From contig JAQGEQ010000255.1 of assembly GCA_034620365.1 (NCBI GenBank), forward strand, positions 682,001 through 746,000: a stretch of DNA of 64,000 bases. Reading direction: 5' to 3'. Position numbers and translations under genes: made by a program. Source of the stretch: Pegea sp. RAD2-039 (lineage: Eukaryota > Chordata > Thaliacea > Salpida > Salpidae). The notes under the pieces are model-generated. The model had not been told where the DNA came from. It was given only the letters and a program-made list of their open reading frames with translations, and made no database searches. Shown piece after piece: positions 2,547 through 45,921 of this stretch. Numbering within the stretch: position 1 is the stretch's first letter; the number at the start of each line of letters is the position of its first letter.

Positions 2547-5500
2547 TTAAAATTTAAAAATGTCATATTCATGTAAAGGGTCATTAAACAACTGATCAAT
2601 CGATATTTGGTCAGTTGTTGAAAGTTCAAAATCTTCTTCCGTTTCGCTCATAGTCGATTGTGGCAAAAACAAGTCTGCTGATGCTGAGTTATTAAATTGA
2701 TCTGTATCACTTGAAGAATGATCGATGGAAATGACTTGATTACTGGAGGTATCAGTAGGAGGTGCAATTTCTGTGTTCACAACTGATGTACCCAATCCAG
2801 TATTTATAAACATATCCATAGATTCAACTCTTGAAGATAATGGAAAGTCAACAGATCTAACTGGATTACTAGCAGTATTCGTGATATGCCTTTCATGCGT
2901 TGGTGGTTCTTGATTAGTTCCTTGAAGAAAGATATCCATTTGTTGATGTTCATTATTAACAAAATAGGAGTTTACTATTTGTTGTTCCATATTGATATCA
3001 ATACATTCATTAGACATGTTTGGATTACTAAAGCTGTTATTTTGTATATCCTTTGCTTTAAATTGAGGTCTTTGCAACGAAGTAGAGTTTAAGGAAGTGA
3101 CTTGATTAATTGACACCTCACTGAAAGTAACCTGATGTCTTGTTGCTACTTGATTAGCAGCTCCAAGATAACTATGATTCTCTTTAGTATTGGAATTGTC
3201 GATCAAATTGTCTATTCGTTGGTTTGAGTTACCACCTCTTTGAAACTGTACGACTTTTGGGTTTACATTACAATTCTCAGCTCTATTTGTCATCATTTTA
3301 TTCCTTTCAGATCGTTGTAAAGACTGATGGTTGGTTTGTAGCGAATTAAATTGAGGTCTTTGAATTGAACAAGAGCTTAAGGAAGAGACTTGATTAGTTG
3401 ACACCTTACTAAAAGGAGCCTGATGTCTTGTTGCTATTTGATTAGCAGCTCCAAGATAACTATGATTCTGTTTAGTATTGGAATTGTCGATCAAATTGTC
3501 TAATTGTTCGTTTGAGTTACCACCTCTTTGAAACTGTACGACGTTTGGGTTTTTATTACAAGTTTCAGCACTGTTTGTAATCATTCTATTTATTTCAGGT
3601 CGTTGTAAAGACTGATGGTTGGTTTGTATCGGATTAAATTGAGGTCTTTGCATCGAAAAAGAGCTTAAGGAAGGGACCTGATGAGTTGACACCTTACTAA
3701 AAGGAGCCTGATGTCTTGTTGCTATTTGATTAGCAGCTCCAAGATAACTATGATTCTGTTTAGTATTGGAATTGTCGATCAAATTGTCTAATCGTTGGGT
3801 TGGGTTACCACCTCTTTGAAACTGTACGACGTTTGAGTTTTTATTACAAGTTTCAGCTCTATTTGTAATCATTCTATTTATTTCAGGTCGTTGTAAAGAA
3901 TGATGGTTGGTTTGTATCGGATTCAATTGAGGTCTTTGCAACGAAGTAGAGTTTAAGGAAGTGACTTGATTAATTGACACCTCACTAAAAGTAACCTGAT
4001 GTCTTGTTGCTACTTGATTAGCAGCTCCAAGATAACTATGATTCTGTTTAGTATTGGAATTGTCGATCAAATTGTCTAATCGTTGGTTTGAGTTATCACC
4101 TCTTTGAAACTGTACGACGTTTGGGTTTTTATTACAAGTTTCAGCTCTATTTGTTATCGTTCTATTCATTTCAGATCGTTGTAAAGACTGATGGTTGGTT
4201 TGTATCGGATTCAATTGAGGTCTTTGAATTGAACAAGAGCTTAAGGAAGAGACTTGATGAGTTGATACCTTACTAAAAGGAGCCTGATGTCTTGTTGCTA
4301 TTTGATTAGCAGCTCCAAGATAACTATGATTCTGTTTAGTATTGGAATTGTCGATCAAATTGTCTAATCGTTGGTTTGGGTTACCACCTCTTTGAAACTG
4401 TACGACGTTTGGGTTTACATTACAAGTTTCAGCTCTATTTGTTATCATTCTATTCATTTCAGATCGTTGTAAAGTCTGATGGTTGGTTTGTAGCGAATTA
4501 AATTGAGGTCTTTGAATTGAACAAGAGATTAAGGAAGAGACTTGATGAGTTGATACCTTACTAAAAGGAGCCTGATGTCTTGTTGCTATTTGATTAGCAG
4601 CTCCAAGATAACTATGATTCTGTTTAGTATTGGAATTGTCGATCAAATTGTCTAATCGTTGGTTTGGGTTACCACCTCTTTGAAACTGTACTACTTTTGG
4701 GTTTACATTACAAGTTTCAGCTCTATTTGTCACCATTCTATTCCTTTCAGGTCGTTGTAAAGACTGATGGTTGGTTTGTATCGGATTCAATTGAGGTCTT
4801 TGAATTGAACAAGAGCTTAAGGACGAGACTTGATTAGTTGACACCTTAGTAAAAGGAGCCTGATGTCTTGTTGTTACTTGATTAGTAACTCGAAGATAAG
4901 TATTCCTCTCAAAAGTGTCAGAATTGTCAAACAACTCGGCCATTACTTCATCAAAACTTTCTCTTACATCGCAAGTTCCTACATTTGAGTTTATATTATT
5001 AGTGTCAGCACTTTTTGTAATCATTCTATTAAATTCAGGTCGTTGTAAAGACTGATGGTTAGTTTGTAGCAGATTACCTGGAGGTCTTTGCAACGAACTA
5101 GAGCTTAAGGAAGTGACTTGATTAATTGACACCTCACTAAAAGTAACCTGATGTCTTGTTGCTATTTGATTAGTAGCTCCAAGATAACTATGATTCTGCT
5201 TAGTATTGGAATTGTCGATCAAATTGTCTAATCGTTGGTTTGGGTTACCACCTCTTTGAAACTGTACTACTTTTGGGTTTACATTACCAGTTTCAGCTCT
5301 ATTTGTTATCATTCTATTCCTTTCAGATGGTTGTAAAGACTGATGGTTGGTTTGTAGCGGGTTAAATTGAGGTCTTTGCATCGAAAAAGAGCTTAAGGAA
5401 GGGACCTGATGAGTTGACACCTTACTAATAGGAGCCTGATGTCTTGTTGCTATTTGATTAGCAGCTCCAAGATAACTATGATTCTGTTTAGTATTGGAAT

Positions 5501-8500
5501 TGTCGATCAAATTGTCTAATTGTTCGTTTGAGTTACCACCTCTTTGAAACTGTACGACGTTTGGGTTTTTATTACAAGTTTCAGCACTGTTTGTAATCAT
5601 TCTATTTATTTCAGGTCGTTGTAAAGACTGATGGTTGGTTTGTATCGGATTCAATTGAGGTCTTTGCATCGAAAAAGAGCTTAAGGAAGGGACCTGATGA
5701 GTTGACACCTTACTAAAAGGAGCCTGATGTCTTGTTGCTATTTGATTAGCAGCTCCAAGATAACTATGATTCTGTTTAGTATTGGAATTGTCGATCAAAT
5801 TGTTTAATCGTTGGTTTGGGTTACCACCTCTTTGAAACTGTACGACTTTTGGGTTTACATTACAAGCTTCAGCACTGTTTGTAATCATTCTATTTATTTC
5901 AGGTCGTTGTAAAGACTGATGGTTGGTTTGTATCGGATTCAATTGAGGTCTTTGCATCGAAAAAGAGCTTAAGGAAGGGACCTGATGAGTTGACACCTTA
6001 CTAATAGGAGCCTGATGTCTTGTTGCTACTTGATTAGCAGCTCCAAGATAACTATGATTCTGTTTAGTATTGGAATTGTCGATGAAATTGTCTAATCGTT
6101 GGTTTGAGTTACCACCTCTTTGAAACTGTACGACGTTTGGGTTTTTATTACAAGTTTCAGCTCTATTTGTCACCATTCTATTCATTTCAGATCGTTGTAA
6201 AGACTGATGGTTGGTTTGTAGCGGATTAAATTGAGGTCTTTGCATCGAAAAAGAGTTTAAGGAAGAGACCTGATGATTTGACACCTTACTAAAAGGAGCC
6301 TGATGTCTTAGTGCAACTTGATTAGCAGCTCCAAGATAACTATGATTCTGTTTAGTATTGGAATTGTGGATCAAATTGTTTATTTGTTGGTTTGAGTTAC
6401 CACCTCTTTGAAACTGTACGACGTTTGGGTTTTTATTACAAGCTTCAGCTCTATTTGTTATCATTCTATTTAATTCGGTTCGTTGTAAAGACTGATGGTT
6501 GGTTTGTAGCGGATTCAATTGAGGTCTTTGCAACGAAGAAGAGTTTAAGGAAGAGACTTGGTGATTTGACAACTTACTGAAAGCAGCTTGATGTCTTGTT
6601 GGTGAAGGTATACTATAGCTAGTGTAGTTGTACGTATACTGCTCATAAATCTTAACTTTGTCGAACAGTTTGTCCATAAGTTTGTTGGACTTTTCACTAA
6701 CTTCGTACTTCTCCATGCTTTGGGTTGACTGAGCGGAATCAGTTCTATTCCTCACATTTCTGTTCATTTCAGATCTTTGTAAATTTGAATTGTTGATTTG
6801 TAGCCTAGTTGTAGAAGCTGAAGGGAGTTGTTGATGCTGTTTCGTGCACTTATGTTGATGACTACTATCGTTTGGTTTTGGAACGAAGAGTTTTCCACAG
6901 AAAGGGCATGGAACAGGACGAATTTTTTCTTGACTTTCAGAAACTGGGTTTAGTTGTTTAGTTTTAGTAGTACTTACTTTGCTTGTAACAGCTAATTTAT
7001 TTAAAGAGTTTGAAGTAGATGGGCTCTGTAAAAATAAAAAATTTCAGTTATCAGATGTTTATTTAAGCCACTATTCATTAATAACTTACATTTTGGTTTA
7101 ACGATTTTTCATCAGAACTCAATTTTAAATCTTTATTGTCCTTCTTTGATTTATTGTAATGCCTAGCTCTATAGAGTTTACCGGTTTTCGTAGGACTAGA
7201 AATTAAATTCAAAGAGAAATTTATCAATTAAAATCTTAAGTTATAAAATTACATCAAACAACTTTTCAAAACCATTTTCAAAAAGTTACTCTAAACAAAT
7301 TGGCAAGTAAACAAATAAGCTTAATTTACTTTCTCTTGTGACAGTTTTTGTGGTACTTTAAATGACCTTGTTGAAAGAACATTTCTCCACAACCTGGCCA
7401 GTCACACTTATATGCCCGAACTCCAGTATGCCTTCTAAAAATAGAATATTACGTAAATGTTTAAAGCAGAAATAAAAGCTGAATTGTAACTGGTCAAGGT
7501 ATAGGATATTTAGTACATTTGACTAATAAATCTAATCAAAACCTAACAGTTTCTAGTGTTATTTAATCACTAATCAGAGTAAGTTAATAATTAGCTACAT
7601 AGATAAATAATTAAATTATTTTAAGGCTCAGAACCTAAAATGTTGTTGAAGATGGTCTAGGCGCTTGTACGAGCATTCACACTGAGGACACTGAAATCGT
7701 TTAGATTCACTGTGAGCTTGTTGATGTTGCTTCAATAAGTAATGTGTGAAAAAACGCTTTTCACAATGTTCACATCTGCGTCAGAATAATTCGAATCATC
7801 ATAGAGCAAATAATGATGATAACCAATATTATTTTCAACAATTTTACATAAATGAAGAATACAAGATTTAAAAAAAAAAGTAAAAAGAAATTCTTTAAAT
7901 TAGTTGATATTTGTTCTGATTAAACACAACTTTCTACTGGTTATAAAAACACGTTAACATCTATTGATAATAATTTTGCTGTTTAGTTAATCATACCGAT
8001 ACGGTTTGTCTTCTTCATTGTTATGTGTACGAGAATGCATTGTCAGAGCACCTCTATCAGAAAACACCTCCTGTTAAAAAGCATAAATATTCAAATACAC
8101 AAGTTATTTAGAAAAAGTAAATTGTTAAAATTTACCCAACATCTTGTACACGAATAAGATTTCGTGTTGGTCTTAATAAGACTACGACTGGTTGTTGTTG
8201 CTTGAGGTGGACGGCTGCTATCAGTACTCACCTTGATTAAAAGTTTTATATTTTATATTCCTTAAATTTTATTAAATAACTATAAATATAACTTAAATAA
8301 ACTTGACTAAAAATTACATATTTGTTATCAAAACAAAGTTTGTTTTTATGTATTGTTTATTTAGCAGGCAAGAACAAAGAAATTTTAGAAAAAAACATTT
8401 TTTTTGAGAAAAGTAAACTCACAGTCTGTTGAATAGATTGTTGAATAGCCTGTAAGTTTTGTAAATTATTATTTGTTGATTGTTGCTCAGCCCTTCCAGT

Positions 8501-23772: not shown

Positions 23773-24729
23773 ATTTAAATATTCTAAACCACAACCTATT
23801 AAATGTTAAACAAAAAATTAAAATTAGTTTTAGTAGCTGATATCCATAATACTGATAAAAAATTATTACAAAATTACATCTTACATAGTACAGTCAGAAA
23901 AATTCTTTATAAAGTAACATATAAATAGATTGCTGATAAACGTTAGAGTTTATTCAATTTAAACAAACATTTTAAAAAGGTACAACAATAGATGAAATGA
24001 TTGTACTAATTAATCTTAAAGAAAATCTTTTTATAAACTAGTACATGACTGGCGTGCTTATAGATATGTATGAGCAACCAAAGTCAAATCACACAACCTT
24101 TGACTTTTATTGTTTATTTATATAACTCATAAATAGTTATAAGGCTTTCATTTATACTTTGACTTCAAATATAAACAAAGCTTTAGACATTCATATACAT
24201 CAAGCAATGCTGCTGAAAAATTATATGAATTAGGTAAACCTGTAATCAGTCATGAAATTTTAGTATTTAGAAAACTAAGGTTTTCATAAAATAAAATGAA
24301 AGATTATTGTAAGTTAAACAGAAGATTTAATAAAATCTTTTCAAAATATACAAAAAGTTGTTACATCACATTAAAAATGTTGTATATAAGCTAATGCTGA
24401 TCAACAACAGTTTGAAAGAATAACTTTTAATGTTAGTTGTATCAAAAATAAAAGAAAAGTTTATTATAAGCTTATAATAATATATGAATTAAACTACATA
24501 TATTAATTATTATACACAAAAGCAAGAACTTGGTAAAATAAACAATTAATTTAATCAAATTATTTTCAAATAATAATTTTTAATTTACCAATTTATTATT
24601 TATTTATATAAATACTAGTTTAATATAAATCTAATTTATTTAAATAATTTTATATTGATAATATCTTTAGAAATTAATTATAATAAATTATGCCACTAAT
24701 CTAATAGGGTAGAATTTATAGTTTTAATA
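23773..24729. other. Intergenic region, no gene seen
   Basis: AT-rich upstream flank of the 7TM gene. No exons were recognised and no clear core promoter motif could be chosen. Confidence 0.45.
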
Positions 24730-25575
24730 ATAATAGACTAGACCTTGGCATTACTCTATCATCTGGCTTTAAATGGCACAATTATGTTTCCAAATTCTTT
24801 ACAAAATCAATCAACCTTGTCTACCTTATTATAAAGACCTTTAATTCTAAGAATCCATACTTTTTTATTAATTTCTTCAAATTGTACGTGTATCCAATTC
24901 TTGAATACAATGTCAGTGCATGGATACCATATCAAGTTGGGGATATAAACAAAATTGAGTCTGTTCAGGCGATATTTACGAGATTGGTATGCAGGAGACT
25001 TAATATCAAATACGATAGTTATAAACATCGTCTCATCTTCTTCAATTTAGCTACATTGGAGATTTGACAGATTAAATACGATTTAATTCTTATCTTTAAA
25101 ATGATCAATAATTTAATTGACTTTCAGTTTGATGATTTCTTTTCCATTAGTCCTTCCATCAATTTCTACCAACTCAGACAACACACAATACAGCTTAATA
25201 AGCCCACATCACCTGGTACATTAATCAGATTCAATTTCTTATCATATCACACAATTATTACTTGGAACCAGTTGCCATCAGACATTGCCATGTCAGAATC
25301 ATTTGTGTTGTTCAAACAGAAGTTTAACCGTTATAGTATTGGCAACACTGCCTTATAAAGTGTGATTTTTTCATTTGTTTGTATTATTAACATTCTATGT
25401 AATTGTTCACTGTTATATGCTTTGAGGACTACCGAAATGTCATGTGTGTTACATCTATTGTTGTCTATATTGTTGACTTAATAGATGTTGTTTGTGAAGA
25501 TCTGTGTTAGCGAGAGGTGTTCTCTTCAGGCACTATCTTTTGCATTTATTGAAATCAAATTTATAAATATCTAGT
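24730..25575 (+). mobile_element. 5'-truncated LINE, C-terminal end of reverse transcriptase ORF
   Basis: One frame runs from about 24735 to 25358 with a single internal TGA (25065-25067). It reads LDLGITLSSGFKWHNYVSKF, then YPILEYNVSAWIPYQ, IESVQAIFTRLVCRR and ITWNQLPSDIAMSES. These are the thumb and C-terminal phrases of non-LTR retrotransposons of the CR1/Jockey type. A 3' untranslated piece follows to about 25575. It contains GAGAGGTGTTCTCTTCAGGC, which recurs in inverted orientation in the other LINE tails of this window. The catalytic YADD part is missing here, so it is a dead 5'-truncated copy. Confidence 0.85.
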
Positions 25576-26630: not shown

Positions 26631-28759
26631 TTAGCCAGATTCTCTTCCAAGAACAACATTTTTGAACTGAATATGCAATCTGTTTGTTTTTCCTGATGGA
26701 TTATAAATACCTGTAGAAGAATTTTTAAATATAATAAAAATATATTTAGCTGAAAAATTATCATACCAAATTTAAAGTATGGAATTCTTCTTTCATCATT
26801 TCGTCCGCATGGACCATTCCAATTAATAACTTCTTTATCATCTATTGAAAGACGAATCCAAGCATTTCTTATTAAAGATCCTTCTTCTAGAATTAATATT
26901 AATGTTAAAAGTTTGTTCAATTTTGTTTGCAAAATTAACTATATCATTGTTGTTACTTAAATTTCAAAGTTTCAAAACAGTTTTATAAAACAAAATTAAG
27001 CTTAAAATAGTTTTTGTAACTTCAAATGTTTTACTTTGTCCAGTAGTTTCGTTCAGAACATTTCTATAAGCACTCCATTTGATTTTCCAAGAAAATTTAG
27101 TATAATTTGATTTAAGAAAGTTGGCATTTTTCATGAAAAGTAAGTTGACCTGTAATAAATTTAGTTGAGATAATAATACGTTAAGATAATGCTTTAAAAG
27201 TCTAGTTAATAAAAGTTTAAAATGATAAGTAACATTTAAGAAATTTTAAAGATATTTGTAATAAATTTGTAACTATTTAAAAACTTGGCAATATTTGAAT
27301 AAAAATATATTCTCGATCAATTTTAAATAACACTCTTATAATATTTACATAGTAATATAAATTAAAACTACAACTTCATAACTAATTGAAAACACGATAA
27401 TATAAGAAAATATTCATTTCGTCTCTTTAATCAAGTTAGTGCTTTGTTTTTAATATTAAATAGCTCTATTTTATCTAAATCATGAAAAATCTATCACCTG
27501 TTGCTCAGGAAAATCATTACATTGTGTTTCACATTTCTCTGTACAACCGGAATTTGGAATGAAAATTCGAGAATCAGACCGTGCTATAACCTTTATATAG
27601 CCATTATCTAATTTTAAAACTAATGGTGGATAGCCTCCTTTTTGATAAGAAAAATCTAATTCGGTCCCGTTTGAACGATGAAATACTTTTCCTGAAATTA
27701 AAAATTCATGAAATCATAAAAATAGTATTAGTAAAAAATAATTAAACCTTTTTGGCACTTATAGGTTGTGCAGGTATCAAAAAACTCTTTAGTTGTTTTA
27801 AAACTAACAACTCCGTTTTTATCTTTTACAATTCTTGGATCTGGTGAACCATGCCACTGTGTAATAATATATTTAGATGTAGACATAACACCTCTACTAA
27901 TTTTCATGCCATAGGAATAAGTATAAGTATCATTTTCTGGTTGGTTTACTGCTCCACACAACAGTGTTAAAAGTGGCTTTACAACTTTATCTAAAAATAG
28001 CTTTCGGTAAAAACAATCTGTGTATAGATGATAAACTCACCAAGAGAAACTTTAGAAGGTTTCTTTGTTGCATCATCATCTGAGGTGTTTGTACTTTTCT
28101 TTAATTCATCAAGTCTGGTAAAGCAATTTGAAAGCTCTACTCTAGATTTTTTATCTTCTATTTCTGGCTGAAAGACGAATCTGAAAATTGTATTGTAAAT
28201 TTTGTACTATTAAAAGTTTTAACTCATTCATTTGCTTGCATATGATTTTACCAAATATGATTTTTGTAGAATACTTAAAACAAAATAGATTGTTTAGCAT
28301 AAAACTTTTTAGATTATTGTAAAACAGCGAGAAATCTTGAATTAGTTTCATTTTAAACAAACTTTATTTCCTTTAGATGTGGCTCTCCTGTTTTGATCTT
28401 ATATTTTGTTTCTGAGATTCCTGTAGTAACTTTAATCCACATTTTCGTTTCTCCAAAATAAGTGTTTTCTATATTTTTTGATAAAGTAAGTTATTTCTAT
28501 AGTTATAATTGCACGTTTCTAATAACAACCAATTATAACACAGCTACAAAATAAGAATTTTTTAAATTGGTTACCGAAATTGTTTAAAAGAGAGACATCG
28601 AGATGGTACTGAGCATCATGTACAACGTAGGCTGGTAATTGAAAATTATTTGTATAAAGCAAATCTAAAAAAAAGATTTTTAAACTAATCTTATACATTT
28701 ATCAAGTTAAAAAACTCACAATTCATGAAGAAAATATGCAAGAGAGTAACAACTTCCAT
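26631..28759 (-). CDS. Secreted heparin-lyase-I-like polysaccharide lyase
   Basis: Nine exons on the minus strand: 28759-28720, 28664-28575, 28468-28363, 28180-28041, 27990-27748, 27691-27498, 27149-27035, 26886-26767 and 26710-26631. All phases agree and give 375 residues. The start MEVVTLLHIFFMNYLLYT looks like a signal peptide. KSRVELS at 90-96, YIITQWHGSPDP at 166-177 and PYFKFGIYNPSG ending near residue 356 follow the signature order of the polysaccharide lyase family that includes bacterial heparin lyase I (PL13; jelly-roll fold). There, RxEL, QWHG and KxGIY blocks line the cleft. His172 and Tyr352 are the candidate catalytic pair by analogy. The length matches bacterial heparinase I (about 375-385 residues). 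The inferred role is beta-elimination of heparin- or heparan-like chains outside the cell; other uronic-acid polymers are possible. Canonical introns argue against bacterial contamination. The donors after exons 3 (GTTTGT) and 5 (GTTTAA) are weak, so those edges are the least certain. Confidence 0.75.
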
Positions 28760-30679: not shown

Positions 30680-31320
30680 TTTTTTATTTATTTAATTCAA
30701 TAAATGCAAAGGAGGGTACCTGAAAAGAGCACCTCTTGCTAACACACATTCTCACAAATAACATCTATTTAGCCAAAAATATAGAAAGCAAACGATGTAA
30801 CACGTGGCATTTCAGTAGTCCTCAAAGCATATAACAGTGAACAATTACATGGAATGTTAATAATATAAGAAAGAGAAAAAAATCACAGTTTTGAAATGAC
30901 AATGTTGGCAATATTATAACGCTTCAACTTCTCCTTGAACAACGCGAGCGACTCCGAGATGACAATGTCTGATGGCAGCTGGTTCCATGTACTAATTGTG
31001 CGGTATGAGAAAAAATTCGCTCTGACCAATGTACTAGGTGATATAGGCTTATTAACTTGTAATGGGTGTCGTCTGAGCTGATATAACTTGAACGAAGGAC
31101 TAATAGAAAAGAAATCATCAAATTGAATGTCAATTAAATTTGTTATAAGTTGATAATTTTAAATATAAGAATTAAGCCGTACTTAATCCGTCGGATTTCC
31201 AAAGTATTAAAATTGAAGAGACTGAGACGATGTTTATAACTACCATATTAAAATATTAAGTTTACTACATAATAATCTTGTAAATGTGGCCTGAACAGAT
31301 TCGATTTTTTTATATCACTA
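30680..31320 (-). mobile_element. LINE 3' end, reverse orientation
   Basis: On the minus strand this piece reads FFSYRTISTWNQLPSDIV and then SLALFKEKLKRYNIANIV, matching the C terminus of the LINE at 24730-25575. It then has the shared 3' untranslated segment with CTCTTTTCAGGTACC and ends in an (AAAT)-like tail at about 30680. Upstream coding sequence is eroded by frameshifts. Confidence 0.8.
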
Positions 31321-32530: not shown

Positions 32531-34154
32531 TTTCCATAATTTCTCTCCTGACTTACAAGCCATTTTTAGCTGAGAAAAGTCACTTATATTATCAACGTTG
32601 CTTTTATAATTTGTTCAAAACTTTAAAAAAACATGAACTATTTGAAAACATGATTAACCAATATTGGTGTTCCTTTTTCTAGAAGCTTGTATGCAGGTTT
32701 CTTGTTTTAATTGCTGGTTTACAATTAAACAATAATTGGAATAATTAGAATATTGATATATTTAGTTAAGCTTTTGTTTAGAACGACTAATCAAATTGTC
32801 TCAAAAGTAAATGAAACGATTAGAAAATTTGTTTTATTGTTAGAGTTGCTTTGTTTACATAAATACTAATTTGAAAAATTTGTACAAAACGATTGCAAAA
32901 ACAGTTTGTTAGACCAATTAAAACTTTAAAGTAAACTTTAAAAATATGATATGAAGTCATTGCAAAAATTAAAACAATTTTATAAGAATGCTTTAAAAAT
33001 ACCATATGAAAGTATTCTCTATCTGAAGACATTCTTAATAACTAATCTAATAATTGCCTTTTACATCATTAGAACAATAACTTTAACTTATCTTCATCTT
33101 TAAAATAATTTGAGCAGTAGACTTTTTCGTAAAATTGCAAATTTATAAGCTTGTATTCATCTAAAAGCAAAGTTTTTCAAGAAAATCTTCTTTAAAATGT
33201 TCTAGAAGTTTCTTACACCACCATGATAGTTTCCTTTTTTGTTGTTTTTAAAACAAATAAGTTTCTTTTCATTTAATTTATTTAATTTTAATTGAAGTCA
33301 ACCAATTTTTTTGTGAAAAAATGCTATAAGGAAGTATTGCTTTCTTAAATCATCTTTCTTACGATGATATTTTATCATTGTTTACTATTTGATCATGTAA
33401 AATAACCAATAAACATTTTGCAAATTGTTGAAACAAAATTACTTTCATTTTACTAATTTTACGGATTTTATTGTTGTGTATATATAGCTTCTTCGAACCA
33501 TTCTAAACATAAAGAGTTTACTTACTACCTTATGACTTTAACAGCTATAAATTGCTCCAAAAAAGTATAAATAAAATTACTCATTAAAAAAAGTAATAAA
33601 GATTTTACGAGTTTTGTTGCTTTTTTGAAAAAAAAAATTATCAAAAATTATAACAAAACTAAAGAGTCTTTGTACTGAGTTGTTGGTATAATCTTTTTTG
33701 TGTATTTTATTTACTTGTACTACGGTTGCTTAAGAAATGAGGGAAAAGGTTGAATGTAATAATTAGTAATCAATTCTTTAGACTTATTAAATTAAAAAAG
33801 GTTTTATACAAAAATAGTTATTTTATGGTGAGGTATTAATCTTTAGCTAGTTTATTTATGTAATAAATATTTAAAATTGATGCAAATGATAATTTAAATT
33901 AATTTTAACTCTAACATTGCTTATTTCTGTTTTTTGTAATGTTCTTATATTCAACATTGCTAGTTACAGTAATACAGTTCAAAATCAATGACGTCATCTA
34001 CGAGCTCATTTAAGCTTCGAAAAAAGGAAACGTGGCAACATGTTATGTTGAAGTGTTTGATTGATGATGCATAATAACGATATAAGTTGCTTATAATTTC
34101 TACTACAATTGTGACATTATCAATCCATATTGTAGAAAATTGTTTGATTTCATA
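32531..34154. other. Upstream region of the intact FGF gene
   Basis: No coding sequence was seen. It is conserved with 43246-44825, apart from indels. A palindromic TGACGTCA (33989-33996) lies about 160 bases before the FGF start, in a block conserved in both copies, and is a candidate CREB/ATF-type site. In the right copy the same position reads TGATGTCA. Confidence 0.45.
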
Positions 34155-35251
34155 ATGACGTCAATTTTAGCTAAGCGATATTTTTTTCTTTATTTTATTC
34201 TGAGTTTGATCACCTTGGCTACTTTGTCATTATCAGTGACGTCATCATCAGTTGAATCATGGAAAAGCCAGCCAGATGCTGGTTTGATCAATAACCTTAA
34301 TGATAACTTTGACTCTCAAAATAGATCTCAGCCTGAAGAGAATGAAAGATTAGCTAGAACCAAGCGGTACTCAAGTAGTCGAGCTTTTAACAATATGGGT
34401 TTTCAACATCAGACAAGATTTCTCTACCATAAAATTACGGGCAAGTGTTTAACTATTACAGAAAGAGGACTTGTTACCCTTAAAGAAGGAAAACAACATG
34501 AATGTAAGTGTTACTGACATCACGACTGCATTTAATGACTTTTTCACGCAGCTCAGTTGCTGTTTTTGACTAGAATCCCAAGGACTGAGGCAGAAATGTC
34601 CTTAGTTAACCCTAAAATTGTTTTACGGATCTATTCACCAGTCTCAAAATTGTTTCTTGCGCTACGGAAACACGGGAAAGTATACGGCACAGTAAGCAAT
34701 TGATGACGTCATTAGAATTAAATTTTTGTGACGTCATTATTCACAGCCTAATCCTAAAGACAAGAATACTAAATTTACCCACGAATATTTTCCCGCATCT
34801 CATGATTCTTACCGAAGCTTCCAACACGGTAATTTTCTCGCCTTAACAGCGTTAGGAGTCAGACCAGGACATCAAGTCTATAGTAGCCACCAAAGATCAA
34901 CTATGTTTTTGGTATTGTCATCGTTTAATGACGTCTCACCTGGACATCAAATATTAGCGTTTTTTCCTTCACTTCGTGGCCCAGACTATGAACGCTGTAA
35001 CATTCTTAAAGGTAAGTGATGTTAATGTCAGTACACGCAGTAGCAAATGATAGATTAATCAATATGTATCTTTAAAGTAGAATGTCAATCGTTTTGTAAT
35101 GAAATCACTGATGACATTTTAAGAGATCAATAACTGATTTATCACGCCAACAGGTCCACGGTTAGAGCGATGTAGGAAGGCAGCATTAAGAGCCCAAAAT
35201 CCGAAAACACATCGTCATCATCGTAAACATCATTCTCACAGAAAATTTTAA
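34155..35251 (+). CDS. Secreted fibroblast growth factor, intact copy
   Basis: Four exons (34155-34503, 34552-34691, 34747-35011, 35154-35251) encode 283 residues. A hydrophobic signal sequence spans about residues 9-30. A dibasic furin-like RTKR is at 68-71. The beta-trefoil core then begins at about 88 (RFLYHKITGKCLTITERGL), passes SPVSKLFLALRKHGKVYGT (the FGF YLAMNKKGKLYGS strand pair) and TKFTHEYF, and reaches YRSFQHGNFLALTALGVRPG (the wyvALNk-G block). The intron directly after KVYGT is where FGF genes commonly carry one. The tail from about 260 is basic and His-rich (HRHHRKHHSHRKF), suited to heparan-sulphate or metal binding. FGFs act on receptor tyrosine kinases with heparan sulphate as cofactor. 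The start is the ATG at 34155; the frame is open upstream only through a TTG. Subfamily not assigned. TGACGTCA octamers lie inside exon 1 and an intron. Confidence 0.88.
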
Positions 35252-43245: not shown

Positions 43246-44825
43246 TCCTGACTTACAAGCAATTCTTAGCTGAAGTAAGTCACTATTATTATCAACGTTG
43301 CTTTTGTAATTTGTTCAAAACTTAAAAAAAACATGATGTATTTCAAAACATGATTGACCAATATTGGTGTTCCTTTTTCTAGAAACTTGTATGCAGGTTT
43401 CTTGTTTTAATTGCTGGTTTACAATTGTTAAAGAATGATTGGTAGATTTTACTAAATCTTAAGGATTATCTAAATTTGTTTATTTATCTAAAAAAATCTA
43501 AGAGTTGAAGTTGTAAAGTTGAAGACAATGAAAAACTACAAAAAGTCAAAATTTTGGTATAACCAGATAATTTTTTGCTGATAAGCTGATGGTGCTGGAT
43601 ATATTTAGTTAAGCTTTTGTTTAGAACGACTAATCAAATTGTCTCAAAAGTAAATGAAACAATCAGAAAATATGTTTTATTGTTAGAGTTCCTTTGTTTA
43701 CCTAAATACTAATTTAAAAAATTTGTACAAAACGAATGCAAAAACAGATTGTTAGACCAATTAAAACTTTAAAGTAAACTTTAAAAACATAATATGAAGT
43801 CATTGCAAAAATTAAAACAATTTTAAAAGAATGTTTCAAAAGATTATGAAAATATTCTCTACCTGAAGATATTCTTAATAACTAATCTAATAATTGCCTT
43901 TTGCATCATTAGAACAATAACTTTAACAAATCTTCATCTTTAAATTAATTTGATCAAAAGACGTTTTCGTAAAGTTTTCATCTAAAAACAAAATTTTTCT
44001 CGAAAATCCTCTTTAAAATGTTCTAGAAGTTTCTTACACCACCATGATAGTTTCCTTTTTTGTTGTTTTTAATACAAATAAGTTTGTCTTCATTTAATTT
44101 ATTTAATTTTAATTAAAGTCAACCAATTTTTTTGTAGAAAAATGCTATAAGGAAGTATTGCTTTCTTAAATCATCTTTCTTACGATGATATTTTATCATT
44201 GTTTACAATTTGATCATGTAAAATAACCAATAAACATTTTGCAGATTCTTGAAACGAAATTACTTTCATTTTACTAATTTTACGGATATTTTTGTTATAC
44301 ATATATAGCTTCTTCGAACCATTCTATACATATTGAGTTTAGTCACTACCTTATGACTTTAACAGCGATAAATTGCTACAAACAAGTAAAAAATAAAATT
44401 ACTCATTAAAAAAAGTAAAAAAGATTTTAAGAGTTATGTTGCTATTTTGAAAAAAAAACAAAGTATCAAAAATTAAAACGAAACTAATGAATCTTTGTAC
44501 TGAGTTGTTGGTCTAATCTATTTTGTGTATTTTATTTACTGGTAATACACTTGCTTAAAAATGAGGAAAAGGTTGAATGTAAAAATTACAAATCAATTAC
44601 AAATCAATAATGTTCTTATATTCAACATTGCTTGTTACAGCAATAAAGTTCAAAATCAATGATGTCATCTACTAGCTCATTTAAGCTTCGAAAAAAAGAA
44701 ATGTGGCAACATGTTATGTTGAAGTGTTTGATTGATAATGCATAATAACGATATAAGTTGCTTATAATTTCTACTACAATTGTGACATTATCAATCTATT
44801 TTGTAGAAAATTATTTGATTTCATA

Positions 44826-45921
44826 ATGACGTCAATTTTAGCTAAACGATATTTTTTTCTTTATTTTATTCTGAATTTGATCACCTGGGTTGCTTTGTCA
44901 TTATCAGTGACGTCATCATCAGTTGAATCATGGAAAAGCCAGCCAGATGCTGGTTTGATCAATAACCTTAATGATAACTTTGACTCTCAAAATAGATCTC
45001 AGCCTGAAGAGAATGAAAGATTAGCTAGGACCAAGCGGTACTCAAGTCGTCGAATTTCTAAAAAATGGGTTTTCAACAGCAGACAAGATTTCCCTACCAT
45101 AAACTTACGGGCAAGTGTTTAACTATTACAGAAAGAGGACTTGTTACCCTTAAAGAAGGAAAACAACATAAATGTAAATGTTACTGACATCACGACTGCA
45201 TTTAATGACTTTTGCACGCAGCTCAGTTGCTGTTTTTTACTAGAATCCCAAGGACTAAGGCAGAAATGTCCTTAGTTAATCCTCAAACTGTTTTACGGAT
45301 CTATTCACCAGTCTCAAAATTGTTTCTTGCGCTACGGAAACACGGGAAAGTATACCGCACAGTAAGCAATTGATGACGTCATTAGAATTAAATTTTTGTG
45401 ACTTCATTATTCACAGCCTAATCCTAAAGACAAGAATACTAAATTTACCCACGAATATTTTCCCGCATCTCATGATTCTTACCGAAGCTTCCAACACGGC
45501 AATTATCTCGCCTTAACAACGTTAGGAGTCAGACCAGGACATCCAGTCTATAGTGACAAGAGAAAATCAACTGTGTTTTTAGTATTGTCATCGCCTAGTA
45601 ATGTCTCATCTGGAAATCAGAATCTATCACTTTTTCCGTCACTTCGTGGCCCAGACTATGAACGCTGTAACATTCTTAAAGGTAAGTGATGTTAATGTCA
45701 GTACACGCAGTAGCAAATGATAGATTAATCAATATGTATCTTTAAAATAGAATGTCATTCGTTTTGTAATGAAATCACTGATGACATTTTAAGAAATTAC
45801 TAACTGATTTATCACGCCAACAGGTCCACGGTTAGAGCGATGTAGAAAGGCAGCATTAAGAGCCCAAAATCCGAAAACACATCGTCATCATCGTAAACAT
45901 CATTCTCACAGAAACCTTTAA
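44826..45921 (+). pseudogene. Frameshifted FGF copy
   Basis: Exons correspond one to one with the intact gene: 44826-45173, 45222-45361, 45417-45681 and 45824-45921. Exons 2-4 have the same lengths (140, 265, 98), but exon 1 is 348 bases against 349. The missing base lies near 45058-45066, just after RTKRYSS. It shifts the frame to a stop at 45120-45122, before the beta-trefoil core. The truncated product would be a 98-residue secreted peptide. Exons 2-4 remain open in the original frame and all splice sites are kept, so the loss is recent or is an assembly error. A patch in exon 3 (about 45540-45645) is far more diverged from the left copy than the rest. Confidence 0.8.

Follow-up and report, generated by a model that had tools for sequence, protein, structure and literature searches.

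Does an animal genome carry, as a gene of its own, a polysaccharide lyase resembling heparin lyase I of bacteria, and what would such an enzyme do there? According to the usual division, as it is put in a passage of PMC11848413, uronic-acid glycans are broken down by hydrolysis in multicellular eukaryotes and by lyases in bacteria. For this locus an earlier note had proposed a gene of nine exons and eight introns encoding a 375-residue heparin-lyase-I-like protein with the motifs RVEL, QWHG and KFGIY, and all of these elements were recovered, on the minus strand of the window, by which we mean the whole stretch of 64,000 nucleotides that was analysed (Table 1). An exon-by-exon rebuild gave intron sizes of 55, 106, 182, 50, 56, 348, 148 and 56 nt, every intron being of the GT-AG type, and placed RVEL from residue 92, QWHG at residues 170–173 (His172) and KFGIY at residues 348–352 (Tyr352). 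The N-terminus, MEVVTLLHIFFMNYLLY, is hydrophobic, with a mean Kyte-Doolittle value of 1.88 over 12 residues, and the protein is probably secreted. This copy is referred to below as C58, and two further copies in the same genome as C53 and C46.

Table 1. Position of the C58 gene and its exons in the window, with the corresponding exons of C53; residues with which C58 positions are aligned are those of heparin lyase I.
Feature	Position	Strand	Content	C53 counterpart
Whole gene	26631..28759	minus	nine exons, eight GT-AG introns; 375-residue heparin-lyase-I-like protein
Exon 1	28720..28759	minus	start codon at 28759; hydrophobic N-terminus; ends in phase 1	also 40 nt, phase 1
Exon 2	28575..28664	minus	ends in phase 1	also 90 nt
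Exon 3	28363..28468	minus	ends in phase 2	100 nt, phases equal
Exon 4	28041..28180	minus	KSRVELS; Arg92 aligned with Arg83	also 140 nt
Exon 5	27748..27990	minus	QWHGSPD; His172 aligned with His151	also 243 nt
Exon 6	27498..27691	minus	QKGGYPPL; Gln223, Glu in 56 of 56 bacterial proteins	203 nt, phases equal
Exon 7	27035..27149	minus	FSWKIKWS	also 115 nt
Exon 8	26767..26886	minus	GPCGRND and PYFKFG; Lys348 aligned with Lys353	also 120 nt
Exon 9	26631..26710	minus	IYNPSG; Tyr352 aligned with Tyr357; stop codon TAA	77 nt, entry phase equal

The GC content of the window lies between 23 and 36% (2-kb steps), and an Rfam search over it returned one tRNA and nothing else. Inspection by eye revealed pieces resembling LINE 3' ends on both sides of the lyase gene, in opposite orientations (24708–25358 on the plus strand and 30883–31158 on the minus strand); a reading common to both runs FDDFFSISPS ... 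NKP.SP.TL ... TWNQLPSD, and two frames of the piece at 24708–25358 matched no Pfam family at E≤0.01. Also by eye, a 1498-residue open frame at 2547–7043 on the minus strand was seen to start with a zinc-finger-like part and to consist for the most part of repeating units, each some 100 residues in size; its Pfam match to COP23 (E 3.2e-9) lies on the repeats and looks spurious. Two similar frames on the plus strand, at 34086–34517 and 44757–45122 and thus about 10.7 kb apart, look like a small secreted protein that has a dibasic-like site.

The possibility that the exons were put together by chance was addressed by running an HMM of 14 bacterial PL13 proteins against the 1814 stop-to-stop frames of the window that measure at least 20 amino acids. 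The five top-ranked frames were five exons of C58, with E values of 1.2e-8, 2.3e-4, 0.46, 1.2 and 1.7; the best frame of a reversed-window decoy (1921 frames) reached E 1.2, equal to the fourth-ranked exon, and therefore just the first two exons stand out singly. The joined C58 protein matched the same 14-protein HMM at E 1.3e-22 in a search of three proteins.

A protein search of the genome (G000; small and AT-rich, 105.7 Mb in 387 contigs), in which only the best candidates were scored so that the gene count is three or more, found C58, C53 (L009) and C46 (L010). A search of the same genome with PF14099 at E≤1e-3 gave no match and missed all three copies, probably because the exons match singly. 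The C53 protein is 48% identical to that of C58, and its gene likewise has nine exons, with all eight introns in the alignment columns and phases of the C58 introns (1,1,2,1,1,0,1,1) and with exons 1, 2, 4, 5, 7 and 8 of equal size in the two genes (Table 1). The model of C46, which is open at its 3' end, has nine introns, the last seven of which show the phases 1,2,1,1,0,1,1, as in C58; four of these seven fall in the same column as their C58 counterparts, one is 1 off, another 3 off, and one lies in the unaligned N-termini. At the C46 locus (G000:C46, 1074087–1077200) EGF-like cysteine exons come first, and the subsequent reading enters a GKDLIFEGSSGKDLIFEEPS tandem repeat.

Descent of the three genes from an intron-bearing ancestor is the best explanation of this pattern. 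Because the introns are common to the paralogues, the C58 junctions are supported without RNA, and the same sharing is a strong argument against contamination. That the locus might be a bacterial contaminant or a chance assembly of frames could be argued from the bacterial character of the family and from the three of five exon frames that are not significant singly, but we consider this exceedingly improbable: intron positions and phases are conserved among copies on three contigs (those of the paralogues measure 287,741 bases for C53 and 1,435,756 bases for C46), third codon positions hold 21–26% GC, the contig around the window extends over 746 kb or more, and both significant exons outscore everything in the decoy. 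The host is an animal, as judged from 27 Wnt matches on eight contigs of its genome. A search for COX1 found none, and the spliced-leader pattern of bdelloid rotifers had 0 matches when up to 3 mismatches were allowed, a result compatible with a monogonont rotifer, since according to PMC1925144 Brachionus plicatilis lacks a conserved leader. A comparison of C58 with C53 by the NG86 method gave a dN of 0.43 and a dS of 1.09, that is, a ratio of about 0.40 with dS near saturation, and shows signs of purifying selection; the two pairs that include C46 (dN 0.75 and 0.71, dS 1.69 and 1.45) are too saturated for use. We regard it as confirmed that C58 is a real, apparently intact and constrained gene of the heparin-lyase-I kind in an animal genome.

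The family relation was then evaluated by profile. Across Pfam at E≤10 the sole family found for C58 was PF14099 (Polysacc_lyase; E 3.1e-12, 47.3 bits against a curated cut-off of 29.9), in agreement with the placement expected in the earlier note; the match spans profile positions 59–200 of 210, the N-terminal part of the profile lying outside it, and the other two animal copies likewise score above the cut-off (44.3 and 55.7 bits). When C58 was compared by phmmer with the sequences of the PDB, five heparin lyase I entries (best E 2.2e-9) and one unrelated chain (E 2.3) were returned, and with a profile of the three animal copies all five matches at E≤1 were heparin lyase I (best E 4.9e-20). 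An hhalign comparison with 14 bacterial proteins gave 99.7% and E 1.6e-26 over 282 columns, beginning at residue 52. On the strength of these matches to solved heparin lyase I structures, C58 is predicted to adopt a beta-jelly-roll fold. The PL7 family, which the earlier note had also raised for comparison, was not borne out: Alginate lyase 2 (PF08787) had no match in C58 at E≤10 and a weak one, below the cut-off, in C53 only (E 0.0086, 16.3 bits against 29.7). A jelly-roll likeness between PL13 and PL7 is stated in a part of PMC12088678. The NCBIfam search gave no family for C58, and Hepar_II_III (heparinase II/III, PL12/PL21) had no match in C58 in Pfam at E≤10.

To place the animal proteins among bacterial ones, genome contigs were scanned with an alignment that combined the three animal proteins with a single one from Bacteroides. 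The scan matched 239 stretches, 70 of them confirmed, at 66 loci; judged by record title these are all from Bacteroidota, save a partial one in Pseudoalteromonas (L080). Eight of the 66 loci gave no full reading by the motif filter (L032, L052, L058, L066, L075, L078, L079 and L080), and two more (L074 and L077) fell below 340 residues and were left out of the residue count, for which 56 proteins of at least 340 residues remain. Mean identity to the bacterial proteins is 22% for C58, 21% for C53 and 26% for C46 (overall range 18–29%), and the top bit score between an animal and a bacterial protein joins C46 and an Alistipes protein (117 bits, 25.9% over 375 columns). An earlier contig scan, with the three animal proteins as the query, had given 171 pattern matches, none of which was confirmed; no relative was confirmed on viral contigs (7 pattern matches with C58 alone, 20 with the mixed alignment), and a plasmid search with the C53 protein returned one record, from Bacteroides finegoldii, with 25.9% identity over 49% of the query.

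The residues aligned with Arg83, His151, Lys353 and Tyr357 of heparin lyase I are identical in 56 of 56 bacterial and three of three animal proteins; the reference numbering used here is that of the Bacteroides finegoldii precursor minus 16, an offset that we take to be correct. Together with Arg83, the kept positions include those in Gln149-Trp150-His151-Gly152, Gly224-Gly225-Tyr226-Pro227-Pro228, Gly343-Arg344-Asn345-Asp346 and Tyr351-Phe352-Lys353 and at Gly355 and Tyr357, and the motifs QWHG, GGYPP and GRND are preserved in all three animal copies. Position 222 is Glu in all 56 bacterial proteins and in C46, and Gln in C58 and C53; the Glu is presumably a calcium ligand of heparin lyase I. 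There are 103 positions at which the 56 bacterial proteins are at least 97% invariant, of which C58 keeps 42, C53 41 and C46 48, and the change of Glu222 to Gln is among the losses of C58. Six cysteines (98, 199, 204, 256, 264 and 336) are common to the three animal proteins; two of them, 98 and 256, have aligned cysteine counterparts in the Bacteroides finegoldii protein, and 199, 204, 264 and 336 have none there.

The likeness of C58 to heparin lyase I (PL13, from Bacteroidota; PDB 9grw, 3ikw, 3ilr, 3imn and 3ina) is thus one of profile across residues 88–362, with the Arg, His, Lys and Tyr positions and the QWHG, GGYPP, GRND and YFKxGxY motifs kept. C58 differs in being an animal gene with eight introns and four additional cysteines common to the animal copies, in its identity of 19–25% to the 56 bacterial members, in a shorter stretch between the QWHG and GGYPP parts (compared with the Bacteroides finegoldii protein), and in Gln instead of Glu222. 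Since Glu222 of the presumed calcium site is replaced by Gln, we class C58 within PF14099 and as heparin-lyase-I-like, and regard it as no more than a possible member of PL13 in the strict sense.

From these sequence comparisons we think it probable that C58 is a working polysaccharide lyase akin to heparin lyase I, a judgement that leaves its origin aside. Such an enzyme would have a beta-jelly-roll fold and would cleave a polysaccharide containing uronic acid by beta-elimination, with His172 as the proton acceptor, Tyr352 as the acid/base partner, and Arg92 and Lys348 holding the uronate carboxylate; we presume for the catalytic His and Tyr and the active-site Arg and Lys the roles that they have in heparin lyase I. 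Cleavage would take place outside the cell and may involve Ca2+. The likeliest substrate would be heparan sulphate, a heparin-like chain or some other sulphated uronate taken from the food or the environment, the next possibility being a role in remodelling the animal's own matrix. Heparan sulphate is our leading candidate, and the divergence of the protein would allow another uronate.

Against a working lyase it counts that C58 keeps only 42 of the 103 bacterial-invariant positions, that its N-terminal part aligns poorly, and that GH88 and Hepar_II_III went unmatched in the exon-by-exon genome search described below. C58 could instead have been weakened or retasked as a secreted, disulphide-stabilised jelly-roll binder of heparan sulphate or a different glycan, lectin-like or of the matrix, with C46 as the sole true enzyme. 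Such a history would fit the Gln that C58 and C53 carry at a position that is Glu in 56 of 56 bacterial proteins and in C46, the six shared cysteines with their four members lacking a Bacteroides finegoldii counterpart, and the EGF-like cysteine exons with which C46 starts; we nevertheless judge it unlikely, as none of the three copies has lost the active-site His, Tyr, Lys and Arg or the motifs QWHG, GGYPP and GRND, and a binder need not keep them. C46 is the most bacterial-like paralogue, and its EGF-like exons together with the reading into the tandem repeat suggest that it may belong to a larger, mosaic protein. Its upstream part comprises a hydrophobic N-terminus and two EGF-like-looking cysteine stretches, on which the Pfam EGF models gave E values of 0.015 to 0.23, under their cut-offs.

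The genome was also examined for other parts of heparan sulphate metabolism. Animal heparanase, which acts on a like substrate, is a hydrolase and not a lyase, and belongs to a different family from C58, GH79. A GH79 match is present in the genome (E 6.6e-4, 24.1 bits, cut-off 23.1), and a 64-residue reading taken there finds heparanase among PDB sequences (2.7e-9); the lyase would therefore be additional to heparanase rather than a replacement for it. This piece of a heparanase gene lies near positions 1367721–1367900 of another contig (G000:C32; L011). GT64 (EXT-type) matches were found on three contigs, and the host may therefore make heparan sulphate itself. Neither GH88 (unsaturated uronyl hydrolase) nor Hepar_II_III (PF07940) was matched in the genome at E≤1e-3 in an exon-by-exon search, a procedure that can miss genes, as its PF14099 version did with all three lyase copies. 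In the most far-reaching version of the proposal, a few related heparin lyases, secreted and in one case joined to EGF-like cysteine modules, would cleave or remodel endogenous heparan sulphate by beta-elimination alongside heparanase. This strikes us as rather improbable; if true, such own-matrix lyase chemistry would leave unsaturated ends on animal heparan sulphate, and we know of no animal heparan sulphate with ends of that kind.

The origin of the family is a separate matter from its function. The earlier note had proposed that an intron-bearing lyase would be a candidate ancient bacterial transfer; the animal gene, its intact motifs and its constraint were upheld, whereas the transfer itself did not gain the same footing, the Bacteroidota relatives standing at 18–29% identity and the branches to them being saturated. 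A tree was built from the three animal copies and 18 bacterial proteins hand-picked from the 56, the relatives in it being bacterial only. It groups the animal copies with a support of 100/99, but saturation affects its inner branches, which measure 7.5 and 8.9 changes per column, and C46 did not pass the test of composition; the tree was accordingly used for the animal grouping and not for the placement of a donor. An ancient bacterial transfer into an ancestor is plausible because bacteria supply the relatives outside this genome and are credited with the lyase strategy, and the family probably entered that ancestor from a bacterium long ago. Vertical inheritance of an old and widespread eukaryotic or metazoan family that was lost in model animals, a view that concerns origin and not function, is possible but on balance doubtful. 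The eight introns common to paralogues of 48% identity and the saturated bacterial branches suggest great age, and the 58 proteins that could be read at the 66 bacterial loci include no close relative of the animal copies; against this, all relatives outside the genome are bacterial, in a comparison that covered bacterial, archaeal, viral and plasmid collections and the PDB.

The open-licence literature yielded no report of a heparin lyase or heparinase in rotifers or, by transfer, in animals, and a transcript table from a snail in PMC5685644 has an entry named "heparinase-like". Taken together, three apparently intact genes of the heparin-lyase-I kind in one animal break the division between hydrolases and lyases, and this suggests that the animal can cut uronic-acid polysaccharides by a lyase in addition to the customary hydrolase. 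The divergent animal enzymes allow the minimal active site of PL13 to be read, and the family offers both a testable animal source of heparan sulphate fragments of the lyase type and a possible case of old inter-kingdom transfer.
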